53,677 nucleotides of DNA from Muribaculaceae bacterium (lineage in GTDB: Bacteria; Bacteroidota; Bacteroidia; Bacteroidales; Muribaculaceae), in the NCBI GenBank assembly GCA_029060285.1, contig JAIDUH010000101.1, positions 1-53,677 on the forward strand, in the 5' to 3' direction. Positions 19,766 to 25,196 of this stretch are shown in pieces (within the stretch, counting starts at the first letter, position 1; each line of letters starts with the position of its first letter). The notes beneath the pieces were generated by a model. It saw nothing but the letters and a program-made list of their open reading frames with translations, was not told the origin of the DNA and ran no database searches. The translations under genes were made by a program, and so were the position numbers.

Positions 19766-19852
19766 ATGTTGGTAGAATATATAATTATTGCTTTTATCGC
19801 CGCCGGTCTGGCGGCGATTGCTGTTTTTAAGTTTCGGTCTAAACGTGAATAG
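19766..19852 (+). CDS. possible 28-aa membrane peptide
   Basis: A tiny ATG-to-stop frame giving one transmembrane segment (IIIAFIAAGLAAIAVFKF) and a basic tail. The IAAGLAAIA part is encoded by the hairpin described separately, and the same peptide segment can be read in frame near 23900. It may be a decayed member of the tiny Bacteroidales proteins often found beside surface polysaccharide clusters, or simply the coding shadow of a terminator. Confidence 0.25.
   Translation: MLVEYIIIAFIAAGLAAIAVFKFRSKRE
19793..19830 (+). terminator. GC-rich hairpin, copy 1
   Basis: ATCGCCGCC GGTCT GGCGGCGAT is a perfect 9-bp stem, followed by TGCTGTTTTT. It lies about 50 bases after rfbC and would end the polysaccharide operon. 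A second copy differing at two positions lies at 23901-23937, beyond the next three genes. Confidence 0.6.
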
Positions 19853-19926: not shown

Positions 19927-19978
19927 CTAAGTATTTTCATTAAAATAACAATCATTACCACTAACAAATAATTTGAAT

Positions 19979-21475
19979 ATGGATTTTATAGATTACTATA
20001 TCAATAAACCGGGAAGATTGATTACTTTTGCCTTAGAAAGGGATATGAAATTCTATAATGTGCTTACTATTATAGAAGCATACCCCGAAGGTATGCCTGT
20101 TGATCGTCAATTTGCTCCCAACATCAATGCCCATGCCTTTTGCGCCAGAACCAAAGCTCCAGGGAAAAAGGATAAGGTTTATCTTGGTATCGAAGAAATC
20201 ATTGTATCTAAGAATCTGTTGACTGATCCGCAGAATCACAGTGTATTTAATGGTGTCAACATATATAATTTAACTCAGGATTTCCAATCCTTTTATACGG
20301 ATTGGATCCAATTGCCTGACAGTTCTTCTGAAATTGCTTCGTTGCTTCCTTCGAGAATGACTTCCGTCAAGGCACACATCTGGAAACCGACAGAGATTCC
20401 CAAAGATGAGATGGAAATTCTTATGAATGCGAAGATTTCCTCTCAATTGCGTGAGCTTTCACAAGGTAATCTCGGCTATGATATAACTAAATACCATAGC
20501 TTATATGGAAGTTACATTACGGCATGCTACACTCCTATATATAGAAATCTTAGATTCAAAGCCAACTCCGACAAAACCGGACTTTACTGCCGTATAGATT
20601 ACCGAACAGCAGATCATCCCATACTTAAGTTTAAAATCCAAACGCATACGCGTGAAAATACTCCGTTGGAGACAAAGAATTTTGAATCCTCAGGTGAGTT
20701 CCTTAATCTGTTTAAATTCGACCATTCGTTCCATCATATAGATATTTCGGTAACTGATGACTTCGATAACACAATAGATCATTATGAATCAATGAATTTC
20801 ATAAGTTCAATTCATTTTACACCCAGTATCAAGACAAAGGATGTGAAGTATATTGATGAAAACGGTAATTCTAAGATAGTGGAGAAATTTGTAGAAGATT
20901 CAACTACTATTATTGGTAAAGAAGAGACTATAGCTTCTCTCTTCAACTCATCGCCTGAGTTCACGTACGAACAGTTTGAGAAATCGCTTGATTTCATTTT
21001 CTTCGACGGTGACAAGAATGACATTGACAAGAATGTGAAGAGAGCCAAGGAATGCATATTGAAAATATTGAACGGTGCTCACAAGACCTGCTACATCTGC
21101 GATATTTTTTTCAGTGCAGCAACCTTTACGACTTTTCTTCTTGATCTCATAAACCTCAATACCAATGTCAGAATCATCTCAAGCAAAGAAAATCTCAATA
21201 AAGATGATCAGAAAAAGCTGCACGACTTAATCAAAAAGTCTAATGAAGAAGTGGGGCACAATATAGAATGCCGCCTGCTGAGGGGAGATAAGGCTGCTCT
21301 TCACGACCGCATCATTGTGGCGGATGATAACGTCTGGATGATAGGTTGCTCTCTTGATGAATTCGGAGTGAGAGCAACTTCCCTCATCCGAGTGCCTGCC
21401 AAATACGCACCCAAGATAATCTCAGGGGTAGAGAAATGGTGGAATGATGATAACTTTACGGAGAAACTGGCATGA
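19979..21475 (+). CDS. VPA1262-like protein with PLD-type C-terminal domain
   Basis: A 498-residue protein from ATG 19979. The first 300 residues are mixed alpha/beta with no motif I know by catalytic function, but the overall pattern fits what is annotated as VPA1262 family N-terminal region. The last 180 residues look phospholipase D-like: TCYICDIFFSAATFTTFLL (D plus FF strand), a strand NVRIISS, then H442-D-R444-xxxx-D449 with DDNVWMIGCSLDEFG after it. This is the HxK(x)4D motif with arginine in place of lysine, common in PLD-like proteins of mobile and defence loci. Only one HKD-like motif is visible, so a dimer or partner would complete the site. It overlaps the next gene by 4 bases. Confidence 0.65.
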   Translation: MDFIDYYINKPGRLITFALERDMKFYNVLTIIEAYPEGMPVDRQFAPNINAHAFCARTKAPGKKDKVYLGIEEIIVSKNLLTDPQNHSVFNGVNIYNLTQDFQSFYTDWIQLPDSSSEIASLLPSRMTSVKAHIWKPTEIPKDEMEILMNAKISSQLRELSQGNLGYDITKYHSLYGSYITACYTPIYRNLRFKANSDKTGLYCRIDYRTADHPILKFKIQTHTRENTPLETKNFESSGEFLNLFKFDHSFHHIDISVTDDFDNTIDHYESMNFISSIHFTPSIKTKDVKYIDENGNSKIVEKFVEDSTTIIGKEETIASLFNSSPEFTYEQFEKSLDFIFFDGDKNDIDKNVKRAKECILKILNGAHKTCYICDIFFSAATFTTFLLDLINLNTNVRIISSKENLNKDDQKKLHDLIKKSNEEVGHNIECRLLRGDKAALHDRIIVADDNVWMIGCSLDEFGVRATSLIRVPAKYAPKIISGVEKWWNDDNFTEKLA

Positions 21476-22092
21476 ACACGTCTAATAAGATTCAGCTTCC
21501 AAACACATCAAAAAAGGTAAGCGGAGACCCAACTATAAAAACTGGAACAAACTATACAATTTTCGATCCTTCAGCCAGACCAGATAAATTCTTCAAACCT
21601 TCACTCATTGGAGCAAAGCTGCTAAAAGGACGAAAGAAAATTATTATTTGGGATCCTCATTTCTCACCCGATAAGGATCATGAATTCTTTTCGTTTGTGG
21701 ATCAGGAAGATGCCCATATAGAAATTCTTACCACATTCAATAATAATAATGGTATATGCAAAAGTCAAGTTGAGACTTTAGCAGATAACATTTGCGAGGT
21801 GTTGAATAAAAATATAGAGACCTATACTCTCCTCATGCAGGGGATTAAGTATGATGAAATGACGGATCTACGTTCCTATAGAATATTCCTCTGGCATGAT
21901 AGGTTCATGATCCTGGACGATGACTTCTATCTAATGGGAACTTCAATGTCAAGCCAGCTAACAGGCAACAAACTTTTTGGTATTTATAAGGTTGAGGATC
22001 CAACTGATAAGGATATAATTGGAGAATTGTATCAAAAGTACAGTCAGTTTTCCCAAAATAAAAAAAATGGCTTTACCCTAAAAAGAGAATAA
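21472..22092 (+). CDS. small PLD-like protein
   Basis: A 206-residue protein whose ATG overlaps the stop of the preceding gene (ATGA). It contains KIIIWDPHFSPDKDHEFFSF, matching the first strand and aspartate of PLD-like domains, and H142-D-R144-xxxx-D149 followed by DDDFYLMGTSMSSQLTGNK. It therefore carries the same HDR(x)4D variant motif as its neighbour, again once only. The pair may form a heteromeric two-motif active site cutting nucleic acid or a phosphodiester. The N-terminal 30 residues are polar and disordered. The third gene starts one base after its stop. Confidence 0.65.
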   Translation: MNTSNKIQLPNTSKKVSGDPTIKTGTNYTIFDPSARPDKFFKPSLIGAKLLKGRKKIIIWDPHFSPDKDHEFFSFVDQEDAHIEILTTFNNNNGICKSQVETLADNICEVLNKNIETYTLLMQGIKYDEMTDLRSYRIFLWHDRFMILDDDFYLMGTSMSSQLTGNKLFGIYKVEDPTDKDIIGELYQKYSQFSQNKKNGFTLKRE

Positions 22093-22093
22093 T

Positions 22094-23857
22094 ATGATTT
22101 CTACAGAATACATTAAGAACCTCTATTTCACTTGCTCCGACTATTTTCTATCGAAATTCCTAAATACACTGAAATATATAGAAAATCTATTTGATAATGA
22201 CTATGAGCACGGCAGTGACACCATTAAAGGTATTGATTCTCTTGCAAACGATATATGTACTGGAAAAATATCCCCGAAAACTATTACTCATGAATATGTG
22301 GGAAACTTCTTTTCTGAGGAAGACTACATGAAGCAGGAATGCATATACTCAGCTATCTTCTATAGGGCAGGCAAGATTATGTCTTCCTGCCCCAACCGGC
22401 TCACACTTGAAAAGATCGGACGACTCTACGAAAAGATGCAATCCCCTTTCTTCTGGGGATTTGAATTGCTGAAAGAAGACATCGGTTCTCTCCTTGATGA
22501 ACTTGAAACTAAATTTAATGATATCATACTGGAAAAATCCAGAACAATGTCGTATTCAAACGCTTCATTTAAAGAGGAATTGATGGCCCTCGGGAAGCTT
22601 ACACCAGAGGAATCTCTCGATAAGATAAACATGTATAATGATGGGGAATATGTGACATTGCCTTCATGCGTGCATGGCATAGCATATATATGCAAACTCT
22701 ATGACTACTCGGATGAATGGTTAAGACTTTATGATATACTGAGACTGTTCCCCCTCAAGGGTGCATTGCTATATGGGCTTGCTACTCCGGAAGGCTGCCT
22801 GAGGGTTGCCGAAAGACAGTCTGGAAAGAATTCGGACAAGATCGACATGACCCTGCTTCAGAACATTTTCTTTCTGAAATCGTGCGACTGTATGGAGAAT
22901 CTTTCAAGGAATTCAGAAAGCCGACATCTGACAGAGAAGCAGAGACAGAAGTCTCAAGATCTGATGAATGACTTTCAAGTCCAGCAACGTGGAGTAGCAG
23001 AAAAATTCATCGATTTTTGCTGGAACACTCTCGGAATCGAAAAGACTGTAACATGGATTGTCGACCTCTATAAAAGATATAATGAAGAGAATAGGTTTAC
23101 CCATTTTCAATGTCTCACGGCCAACCTCCTCAATTCTATTCTGAAGGGTAAGATAGAGAATATTGATCCTAAATTACTGTCGTCGTCAAATTACGAGAAT
23201 CTACTTTTCTATCTTTCCTCTTTGGATAAAAAAAACACAGAGATTGACGGCAGTTTGATAGCCTCATTGATGAAAGTGACGTATTCTGGCTTTTTCCAGA
23301 TGCCTGAGACCAATGAAGAAGGATTTGAGAAGTTAAGGGGAGTATACACGCATCTTAGTGGAGACAGCAAAGAGACCTGGGCTAAGGTGTGCACATTCCG
23401 ACACGCAACCGAAGGCTTTAAGGTGGATGATGATGACAGATATCATACTGTCAACGGAGATGTTTTCTGGCTATCTGTGCTATTACTGCAGCTTGAATCG
23501 ACAGCAGATAAAGAAAATCTACGATTTCTTGCAGAGCTTGCACTTGAATCGGCATCCAACTCATTGGATAGGGGAAATTTCTTCATCTCGCTCTATATTG
23601 CGGAATTGATAGTCTCCCAGGTAATACCTGAATACAAGGATTGGTTTGAGCTAAAACTTATAAATGAATACTGTGATCTTGTAGAGGTGTTGAGAATCAT
23701 ATCCGGTAACAATGGAGCCTTCTCAGACAAAGTCAAAGCAGCTTTAAAGAGAAGAGTTGACAGAGAATGGAAGCTTGAAAAAGAGATCAAAGGAAGCTAC
23801 AATAAGGAGATGCTGGAATTTCTTGATGAATTCCTTCATCGCTCACATATTATTTGA
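22094..23857 (+). CDS. 587-aa helical protein of unknown family
   Basis: A large, almost entirely alpha-helical soluble protein without signal peptide or membrane segments. It has many tyrosine, leucine and aspartate residues. I found no Walker, protease or nuclease motif. A pair of cysteines (FLKSCDCMENL) lies near residues 265-275. The helices recur in a way that could be a solenoid or scaffold, as in sensor subunits, but this is a guess. It begins 1 base after the small PLD-like gene, so the three genes are one transcription unit. An inverted repeat (TAATCCTA/TAGGATTA, 23859-23881) follows the stop. Confidence 0.7.
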   Translation: MISTEYIKNLYFTCSDYFLSKFLNTLKYIENLFDNDYEHGSDTIKGIDSLANDICTGKISPKTITHEYVGNFFSEEDYMKQECIYSAIFYRAGKIMSSCPNRLTLEKIGRLYEKMQSPFFWGFELLKEDIGSLLDELETKFNDIILEKSRTMSYSNASFKEELMALGKLTPEESLDKINMYNDGEYVTLPSCVHGIAYICKLYDYSDEWLRLYDILRLFPLKGALLYGLATPEGCLRVAERQSGKNSDKIDMTLLQNIFFLKSCDCMENLSRNSESRHLTEKQRQKSQDLMNDFQVQQRGVAEKFIDFCWNTLGIEKTVTWIVDLYKRYNEENRFTHFQCLTANLLNSILKGKIENIDPKLLSSSNYENLLFYLSSLDKKNTEIDGSLIASLMKVTYSGFFQMPETNEEGFEKLRGVYTHLSGDSKETWAKVCTFRHATEGFKVDDDDRYHTVNGDVFWLSVLLLQLESTADKENLRFLAELALESASNSLDRGNFFISLYIAELIVSQVIPEYKDWFELKLINEYCDLVEVLRIISGNNGAFSDKVKAALKRRVDREWKLEKEIKGSYNKEMLEFLDEFLHRSHII

Positions 23858-23900
23858 CTAATCCTACGTAACATAGGATTATGAATGATGTTAAATTGGA

Positions 23901-23937
23901 TTTATCGCCGCCGGTTTGGCGGCGATTGCTGTTTTAA
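23901..23937 (+). terminator. GC-rich hairpin, copy 2
   Basis: ATCGCCGCC GGTTT GGCGGCGAT followed by TGCTGTTTT, nearly identical to 19793-19830. It lies 44 bases after the last gene of the PLD cassette and between convergent genes, so termination is a reasonable role. Confidence 0.6.
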
Positions 23938-24059
23938 CGTGGAAAAGGGGGAGATTTTGACTTATTTTTTGGGACAGATTATTAAAAGGAATGGGGGTTA
24001 TTGGCGAGGGGATGCTTTAGATTGGGGCTTGAATGGAAAGGAATATGGGACGTAATTTA

Positions 24060-25196
24060 TCAAATATCCCGGATGTTCAAGAGAAGGGGGGCGGAAGTAG
24101 GACCATCGTAAATGACAGTGCGTTGTGAAACATCGGGTATCAATTCTGACACATACTTCATATTAGTCATGAATTCGGGCTTGAACGTGCTACCTGCCTT
24201 GATCTCGTAGATATTCAGTCCGTCACGATTCCTTACCATTACGTCAACCTCCTTGCCTGAGCGCTCCCGATAGAAGTTGACATTAGGTAATCTTGCCTGA
24301 TTATACTGATTCTTTATCAACTCTGAGACTGCCATATTCTCAAATATTGCTCCCCTTATAGTGCTTGATTGATACTGTTGTTCGCTTTCTATCCCGAGCA
24401 AGTAGCATAGAAGCCCCGTATCATAGAAATATACTTTGGGCATCTTGGTTAATTGCTTTGGAATATTCGCAAAGTATGGGTGCAGGGTAAAGGTGATATA
24501 GGAGGCATCAAGTATCGAAAGCCATTCGGTAATAGTTGGAGCTGAGACCCCAGCTTCCTTTGCTATCTGCGATGCGTTGAATTCGCTTCCAACACGTGCG
24601 GCCAGCAAGCGGACGAATGTGTCGAAACGCATAATGTTTTTTAGCTTCATCAGATCTCTCACGTCTCGTTCGACATATGTGGTATAATAATTGGGATAGA
24701 ATATTTCTTCGGGAATTCCGTTTACGAGGATACCGGGGTATTGTCCGCGTGAGAGTAGCTTCCATGTGAGTACAGATTTTTCCTGTTCCGTCATTTCCTT
24801 CAACGAGAAAGGAAGAAGGGTAAACAGGGCAACTCTTCCGGCAAGAGACTGAGTCATACGATGCAGCAGACTGAAGTTTGAGCTTCCGGTAAGAATGAAA
24901 CGTTTTTCCGAATCCTCGTCGACCCTTACCTGAATCATCGAAAGGAGTTCCGGTACATTCTGCACTTCATCAATAATAGCTCTATTTCCAAGAGAATCTA
25001 TGAATCCGGTAGGATCTTCAATGGCTCTTCCTCGAATAGAAAAATCTTCAAGATTGACATATTTGAAATCAGGGAATAGATGACGGCAAAGAGATGTCTT
25101 GCCTGACTGGCGTGGTCCTGTTATAGTAGTGACAGGATAATATTTCTGTACATCAAGTATCTTATCGGATATTTCCCTTCTTACATATTTGGGCAT
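24060..25196 (-). CDS. ATP-binding protein with DUF4143
   Basis: A 378-residue protein of the AAA_14/DUF4143 family, very common in Bacteroidales. Walker A is ITGPRQSGKTSLCRHLF near residue 25. Walker B is RAIIDEVQ, followed by the sensor LTGSSNF. The middle has a winged-helix-like SQIAKEAGVSAPTITEWLSI. The C-terminal DUF4143 shows KVYFYDTGLLCYLLG and FYRERSGKEVDVMV...YEIKAG, resembling a PD-(D/E)xK nuclease core. The biological role of the family is unsettled; some copies behave as accessory or mobile genes. It is transcribed toward the PLD cassette and has its own promoter. Confidence 0.9.
   Translation of the reverse strand: MPKYVRREISDKILDVQKYYPVTTITGPRQSGKTSLCRHLFPDFKYVNLEDFSIRGRAIEDPTGFIDSLGNRAIIDEVQNVPELLSMIQVRVDEDSEKRFILTGSSNFSLLHRMTQSLAGRVALFTLLPFSLKEMTEQEKSVLTWKLLSRGQYPGILVNGIPEEIFYPNYYTTYVERDVRDLMKLKNIMRFDTFVRLLAARVGSEFNASQIAKEAGVSAPTITEWLSILDASYITFTLHPYFANIPKQLTKMPKVYFYDTGLLCYLLGIESEQQYQSSTIRGAIFENMAVSELIKNQYNQARLPNVNFYRERSGKEVDVMVRNRDGLNIYEIKAGSTFKPEFMTNMKYVSELIPDVSQRTVIYDGPTSAPLLLNIRDI

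Follow-up and report, generated by a model that had tools for sequence, protein, structure and literature searches.

The 53,677-nucleotide (nt) contig JAIDUH010000101.1 of a Muribaculaceae bacterium (assembly GCA_029060285.1), the whole of which is referred to here as the window, carries at positions 19,979 to 23,857 a compact cassette of three genes, designated A, B and C. Judged by its profile match, gene A is a member of the VPA1262 N-terminal domain family, and the products of A and B each contain one phospholipase D (PLD) domain with a variant HxR motif, while C encodes a large helical protein. These genes are conserved together across differing genomic settings and two phyla, the neighbours of the homologues being unrelated. 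In our judgement the balance is about even as to whether the cassette represents an immune operon of the VPA1262-PLD kind, acquired by horizontal transfer, in which A and B would form a nuclease and C would act as its sensor or inhibitor.

A reading made from the sequence alone, without database searches (the sequence-only reading), had proposed the cassette as a possible undescribed defence system. This stands in part. The cassette is not wholly new, since A belongs to a family already named by NCBI, and the open-licence literature searched contained no function for the VPA1262 family. The split A-B-C form, with its paired HxR half-sites and divergent C, appears to be undescribed in that same literature.

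Operon anatomy and family membership of gene A

The cassette consists of the following genes:

19979..21475, + strand: gene A, 498 amino acids (aa) from the ATG, with a VPA1262-type N-terminal region and a C-terminal PLD domain
21472..22092, + strand: gene B, 206 aa, a lone PLD-type domain
22094..23857, + strand: gene C, 587 aa, a large helical protein of no known family

The tight packing described earlier, with genes overlapping or one base apart, is borne out by an overlap of 4 nt between A and B and a gap of 1 nt between B and C; an in-frame TTG is present at 19973, upstream of the ATG of gene A at 19979. Against the NCBI model NF040700 (VPA1262_N_dom), whose curated cut-off is 80 bits, gene A scores 90.7 bits, with residues 155-489 aligned to profile positions 110-477 of 478. 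Its match to the Pfam model PLDc_2 (E 1.4e-5, 25.3 bits) lies slightly below the cut-off of 27 bits, which is passed by the A proteins of the relative genome G055 (32.1 bits), of Klebsiella (38.7 bits) and of Burkholderia glumae (33.1 bits). Gene B matches the PLD end of VPA1262_N_dom alone (E 1.2e-9, 37.4 bits, below the cut-off of 80) and PLDc_2 at E 0.047 and 14 bits, below the 27-bit cut-off. The identity of the G055 proteins to those of the window is 48% for A and 38% for B. An AlphaFold2-type model of A, based on a two-sequence alignment, was poor (predicted local distance difference test, pLDDT, 48), and its N-terminal part is rich in strands.

A variant PLD motif in A and B

Both PLD domains follow the pattern H-x-R-(x)4-D-(x)6-G-x-S-(L/M), with a single motif per chain. 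The motif of gene A reads H442-D-R444-(x)4-D449-(x)6-G456-C-S458-L and is preceded by the strand D375-I-F-F, and that of gene B reads H142-D-R144-(x)4-D149-(x)6-G156-T-S158-M, preceded by the strand D61-P-H-F; the elements that had been picked out by eye, one HDR(x)4D in each protein after a D-x-(F/H)F strand, are all present. The motif residues of A and B are unchanged in the G055 orthologues. Additionally, in an alignment of seven A proteins representing 7 of the 12 A loci described below (window, G055, Klebsiella, B. glumae, Azospirillum, Rhizobium and Methylorubrum), D375, H442, D443, R444, D449, W453, G456, S458 and G463 are invariant and the motif spacing is retained, with identity to window A falling as low as 13%. 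Because the residues are identical in G055 and invariant across the seven A proteins, the motifs are not attributed to chance. The A protein of Gluconobacter, which stands outside this alignment, has no aspartate at the motif spacing.

The canonical PLD motif is given as HxK(x)4D(x)6GSxN in the portion of the source available (PMC11442185). Since the motif of A and B departs from this HxK form, their catalysis as nucleases is putative. PLD proteins with one motif generally act as dimers, and the single motif on each chain therefore makes pairing of A with B through their PLD domains an attractive possibility.

The relationship between the two domains was examined in a 23-row PLD tree, in which A domains (support 89/82) and B domains (86/79) are separate, and B stands beside RhuM-type tails with modest support (81/79), window B lying on a long branch. 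A recent duplication as the origin of A and B is disfavoured by this separation. Of the ten genomes with weak B matches described below, the six viewed have proteins of about 300 aa that, by reading, begin in a RhuM-like manner or end in an HDR PLD domain.

A recurrent Bacteroidota protein of about 300 aa, whose N-terminus reads as RhuM-like, occurs at loci L005, L008, L009, L026, L027, L030, L035 and L037; it has the same HDR PLD tail, ending HDRF(L/M/I)IID...GAS(L/F)KDLGK, and is drawn next to B in the PLD tree. At L023, L024 and L033, open frames of 605 to 1644 codons have a long stretch that looks helical ahead of an HDR PLD at the C-terminus, which is perhaps another fused plan.

Gene C

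No match better than E 0.04 was obtained for C in Pfam, NCBIfam, PADLOC or PHROG. Its AlphaFold2 model, derived from two aligned sequences, is nearly all helix (mean pLDDT 64.8; predicted template modelling score, pTM, 0.59), and its likeness to helical-repeat proteins is of a general kind only. The earlier description of the third gene product as a 587-residue helical protein without a known domain agrees with both results, the helical character being that of the model.

The C proteins fall into two groups. One is composed of the window C, that of G055 (37% identity to window C) and that of the Bacteroidia genome G902, the last matching the Bacteroidia C profile with E 6.8e-14 when the number of sequences is set nominally at 1000; the C of a further Bacteroidia genome, G292, is weakly attached, with collinear BLAST matches to other Bacteroidia C proteins at E 0.008 and 0.017, a probability of 7% in the profile comparison and E 0.14 with a two-row profile. 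The other group, connected by BLAST at E 4e-37 to 0.01, contains B. glumae, Azospirillum, Bradyrhizobium, Rhizobium and Methylorubrum, and is joined by the Klebsiella C through profile comparison (probability 72%, E 3.5e-5). The Gluconobacter C was linked to neither group in a single profile comparison.

Conservation of the gene arrangement

Window B led, at E 2e-3, to a plasmid of Klebsiella variicola (pML9ba2), on which an operon encodes A (590 aa), B (213 aa) and C (639 aa), with an overlap of 8 bases between A and B and a gap of 2 bases between B and C. The Klebsiella A, used as a query, led to seven further plasmid records, giving 8 proteobacterial plasmid records in total, of which five are conjugative plasmids. 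Two B. glumae plasmids have the order A-B-C, and the protein accessions of B and C are identical between them; on an Azospirillum plasmid, the B frame between A and C is shortened; and in Bradyrhizobium, Rhizobium, Methylorubrum and Gluconobacter, A is directly followed by the large gene, with no B between. Together with the window and three other Bacteroidia genomes, these records make up 12 A loci, or 11 if the B. glumae pair is counted once. In 12 of these 12 loci, A or B has beside it a large gene, of 491 to 659 aa; the plasmid set and G902 were found with A rather than C as the query. Co-occurrence, which the sequence-only reading had proposed to check by homology search, is thus observed: the genes travel together. 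As indicated by the homology of its members, A across Bacteroidia and plasmids is one family.

The B frames of G902 (L100:8569-9042) and Azospirillum (L071:11398-11880) end before the HDR motif, leaving 187 and 199 nt to C, which may reflect either decay or assembly error. In Methylorubrum, the end of C is overlapped by an extra gene of 260 aa (L073:13398-14180), which has neither a Pfam match nor the HDR motif.

Distribution in Bacteroidia

The operon is accessory and sparse. Strong matches to B were found in 2 of 101 relatives, namely the window genome and G055, and weak ones (E 1e-4 to 1e-3) in 10 genomes; C was present in 2 of 200 relatives, again the window genome and G055. Among 393 genomes of the order, A was detected in the window genome and G292, and C, with a three-row profile in which one row was the G292 C, in the same two. 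A further order-level match to A, in G164, was rejected as false, the protein being by reading an outer-membrane protein. A seven-row A profile matched 20 of 385 genomes of the class, and beyond the PLD part it matched only the window genome and G902. That the cassette might prove to be core genome, a possibility raised at the outset, does not agree with these counts.

The neighbours of the operon differ between genomes. G055 contains the full A-B-C arrangement among neighbours unlike those of the window. In G902, the B frame that stands between A and C is shortened and lacks the HDR motif; the G902 A matches window A over the full length (E 4e-42) and also matches the A proteins of Azospirillum (E 1e-26) and of Klebsiella and B. 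glumae (8e-20). In G292, a PLD frame of the A type (147 aa) starts 151 bases from the contig edge, and a large gene lies 7 bases on. Beside the G055 operon, on the minus strand (L015:14930-17710), are membrane-like proteins, of which one is Csx27-like (E 2e-5) and another matches DUF7931 weakly (E 0.0014).

Single-chain VPA1262 relatives

Of 395 genomes of the phylum, 3 passed the NF040700 cut-off, namely the window genome and two in which the match is one uninterrupted frame, of 1133 and 1142 codons. Single-chain VPA1262 proteins of about 1130 aa were also found in five plasmid records and one IMG/VR contig. The seven single-chain members that were aligned have in common the N-region, a single HDR PLD with G(F/Y)(H/N)(L/F)SNS after it, and a long tail. 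In outline, this plan resembles A and C placed on one chain; the likeness is one of layout rather than demonstrated homology, because the tail has no match to C in profile-profile comparison. VPA1262 itself is located in the Vibrio parahaemolyticus island VPaI-6, which the available part of its source describes as integrase-bearing and flanked by direct repeats (PMC1464126).

Defence genes near the homologues

Ten proteins hand-picked as promising among the neighbours of the single-chain relatives were compared with PADLOC, of which 8 gave a match and 2 gave none. PglZ and BrxA, which are BREX genes, lie directly upstream of the single-chain member on the IMG/VR contig. Other PADLOC matches near single-chain members are a DUF2290-helicase pair (Nostoc), NucC (Agrobacterium), an IetA-like ATPase and a RecD-like helicase (both Anabaena), and a PifA-like ATPase (Shewanella). 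The remaining frames of the IMG/VR contig look, by reading, like phage tail and lysis genes.

Near the split operons, product names include Abi (Klebsiella), abortive infection (Azospirillum) and TIR with two SIR2 (Methylorubrum). Such names were counted in 12 plasmid loci (B. glumae taken once), in stretches of 19 to 24 kb amounting to about 254 kb, with TrlF, DUF2290 and toxin-antitoxin genes excluded; as a control, five 50-kb stretches (250 kb) were taken from five of the same plasmids, away from the operon. The plasmid loci contained Abi, abortive-infection, TIR and two SIR2 genes and one restriction-modification set, distributed over 4 of the 12 loci. The controls contained Shedu, a type I restriction endonuclease, NACHT, caspase and Abi in 3 of the 5 stretches, and the Klebsiella control also had a TerB-ATPase-helicase trio recalling Shango. 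Placement in defence islands, which had been suggested as a further check, is supported in part only: some single-chain relatives lie near BREX, NucC or DUF2290-helicase genes, and no such placement is seen for the window or in the plasmid-locus counts.

Flanking repeats and chromosomal setting

The cassette is bracketed by two copies of a 46-nt direct repeat:

19787..19832, + strand: left copy, containing a terminator-like hairpin at 19796-19818
23895..23940, + strand: right copy, containing a terminator-like hairpin at 23904-23926

The copies are 89% identical, and the near-identical flanking hairpins noticed in the sequence are thus real. Both copies are terminator-like by consensus scan, and their hairpins fold at -18.2 and -17.5 kcal/mol, with 0 and 5 of 200 shuffles equally low. 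The 23-nt core of the repeat has no further occurrence at up to 3 mismatches in the assembly (3.29 Mb, 224 contigs, 81% complete). Since the hairpin pattern is missing from the 12 relative loci scanned (two from the same record; the G055 and G292 operons included), the flanking repeat is not a general part of the operon. The simplest reading is that the cassette was inserted at a terminator, with one copy left at each end.

The putative product of a 28-codon frame around the left repeat (19766-19852, + strand) is a small peptide, hydrophobic and ending in a basic tail. By reading, the right copy has no matching ATG frame, and no peptide like this product was found in the 12 relative loci (best E 1.5).

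With regard to the wider setting, the DUF4143 ATPase named in the sequence-only reading is confirmed by family match, and the assignment of the upstream genes to a polysaccharide operon is a reading of the translations only. The ATPase gene (24060-25196, - strand; DUF4143/AAA_14) matches the PADLOC candidate PDC-S01 at E 5.5e-94, a candidate that the accessible part of its source describes as very common and untested (PMC12988326). Among nine genomes fetched, G005 and G012 have the most similar neighbouring pgm, at 96% identity, and C was not found in either of them (85 and 86% complete). G005 has different genes after nadD, and the G012 contig ends about 0.8 kb past nadD. By reading, the frames after nadD in G005 (L051:4444-14155) would encode a protein kinase and a phosphatase, together with an FHA protein and a caspase-like one.

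Proposed function and alternative explanations

In an acquired immune operon of this kind, A and B would pair through their PLD domains, each contributing one HxR half-site to a single nuclease active site, and the N-terminal region of A together with the helical C would hold the enzyme silent and sense infection. Upon entry of a phage or plasmid, C would free the enzyme and nucleic acid would be cut. We infer nuclease rather than lipase activity, the pairing of A with B, the role of C, the target, the trigger and the defence purpose. The invariance of the motif, the A-(B)-C layout, the sparse distribution, the conjugative plasmids and the PADLOC neighbours of single-chain relatives are counted in favour of immunity, as are the island setting of VPA1262 itself and the part that other PLD nucleases play in immunity.

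Several observations weigh against it. The motif of A and B has HxR and GxS(L/M) instead of HxK and GSxN, its spacing being unchanged. Of the 12 A loci, 5 have an HDR-bearing B, 2 have a shortened one and 5 have none between A and C, so that an A:B pair is not general. No sequence or profile link connects the Bacteroidia C with the proteobacterial C. By product name, defence genes are not denser near the plasmid loci than in the control stretches, such plasmids being defence-rich throughout. Additionally, the phage collection searched gave no match, and the window has no recognisable defence island, only the DUF4143 ATPase with its PDC-S01 match. Of the anti-phage pattern proposed at the outset, which is largely sensible, the compact, accessory operon of co-occurring genes is observed, and defence-island placement is supported in part.

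It is also conceivable, though we lean against it, that these proteins constitute a so far undescribed cross-phylum immune family in three builds (single-chain VPA1262, A-C and A-B-C), characterized by a nuclease of unequal HxR half-sites and a fast-diverging C; divergence of C beyond recognition would be expected of a virus-facing part in such a family.

Among the other explanations, a toxin-antitoxin-like maintenance element, with A and B as a PLD toxin and C as its antidote, would stabilise plasmids or islands rather than act on phages. The eight plasmid records of A, the compact overlapping genes and the toxin-antitoxin genes adjoining both the Gluconobacter operon and the single-chain Agrobacterium VPA1262 are consistent with this role, but single-chain VPA1262 has no separate antidote gene in the family itself and usual antitoxins are far smaller than C, which leaves it unlikely. 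The PLD superfamily contains lipid enzymes, and Pfam assigns no more than a PLD-like domain, which would allow the PLD domains to cleave or exchange phospholipids and thereby kill the infected cell; we consider such a membrane effector quite unlikely, as A and B have a single motif per chain, like small PLD nucleases, and neither the models nor the translations, to which no dedicated predictor was applied, gave a visible sign of a membrane segment or signal.

Similar doubt attaches to the idea that the HxR PLD domains have no catalytic activity and serve to bind nucleic acid in a repair or mobile-element role. Replacement of the HxK lysine by arginine and the altered GSxN in A and B would fit it, as would the DNA-repair or SOS genes near the Burkholderia and Bradyrhizobium operons, whereas the invariance of H, R, D, G and S in seven very divergent A proteins is as expected of a working site. 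Finally, an rfbC-like gene in the same orientation lies a short way upstream of the cassette, which might suggest a part in the neighbouring polysaccharide cluster or a housekeeping role; yet about 230 nt and a terminator-like hairpin intervene, the neighbours elsewhere are unrelated, and the cassette is missing from nearly all relatives searched, with no C found in G005 and G012, so that such a role is rejected as highly improbable.

If the cassette is indeed an acquired immune operon, a family for which databases have no more than the name of a gene in a Vibrio island would acquire an operon anatomy, a hypothesis of catalysis by HxR PLD half-sites in A and B, and a partner, C. Immunity PLD nucleases would then extend beyond the canonical HxK motif, and a defence module would exist both as a single chain and as a split operon.

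Comparison with known systems

Mokosh and Azaca are listed with a PLD-like domain in the available portion of the source (PMC10952713). These two systems and DISARM, through DrmC, share with A and B a PLD-like domain within a defence system. A helicase partner, which we take to be expected in all three, was not found, as A, B and C contain no helicase domain in Pfam at E up to 1. In PADLOC, for which the presence of Azaca models was not checked, the only match of the window proteins to these systems is a weak one of A to DrmC (E 0.022), and MkoC is matched by the B. glumae A only (E 0.0092).

Other PLD nucleases function in immunity, as stated in the part of the source at hand, and the haloarchaeal AgaP (Argonaute-associated PLD protein) described there is likewise a small variant-motif PLD protein acting with a partner; AgaP differs in keeping HxK with a displaced GSxN, and no Argonaute accompanies the window cassette (PMC11442185). 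The PADLOC candidate PDC-S05, matched by A at E 3.5e-6 and by B at E 2e-7, and RhuM-like proteins with an HDR PLD tail share with A and B an HDR-type PLD; the likeness is limited to the PLD part, the N-terminal domain being another one and the gene a single one.

Compared with single-chain VPA1262 (NF040700), the window cassette is split over three genes, has a second PLD domain in B and has a C without a match to the tail, but A passes the same domain model, and the N-region, the one HDR PLD and the long C-terminal part are alike. The plasmid operons annotated as "VPA1262 family N-terminal domain-containing" (Klebsiella variicola pML9ba2, Burkholderia glumae, Azospirillum and others) have a C unlinked to the Bacteroidia C, and four of them have no B between A and C; they nevertheless share with the window the order A-(B)-C, similar gene sizes and a homologous A.

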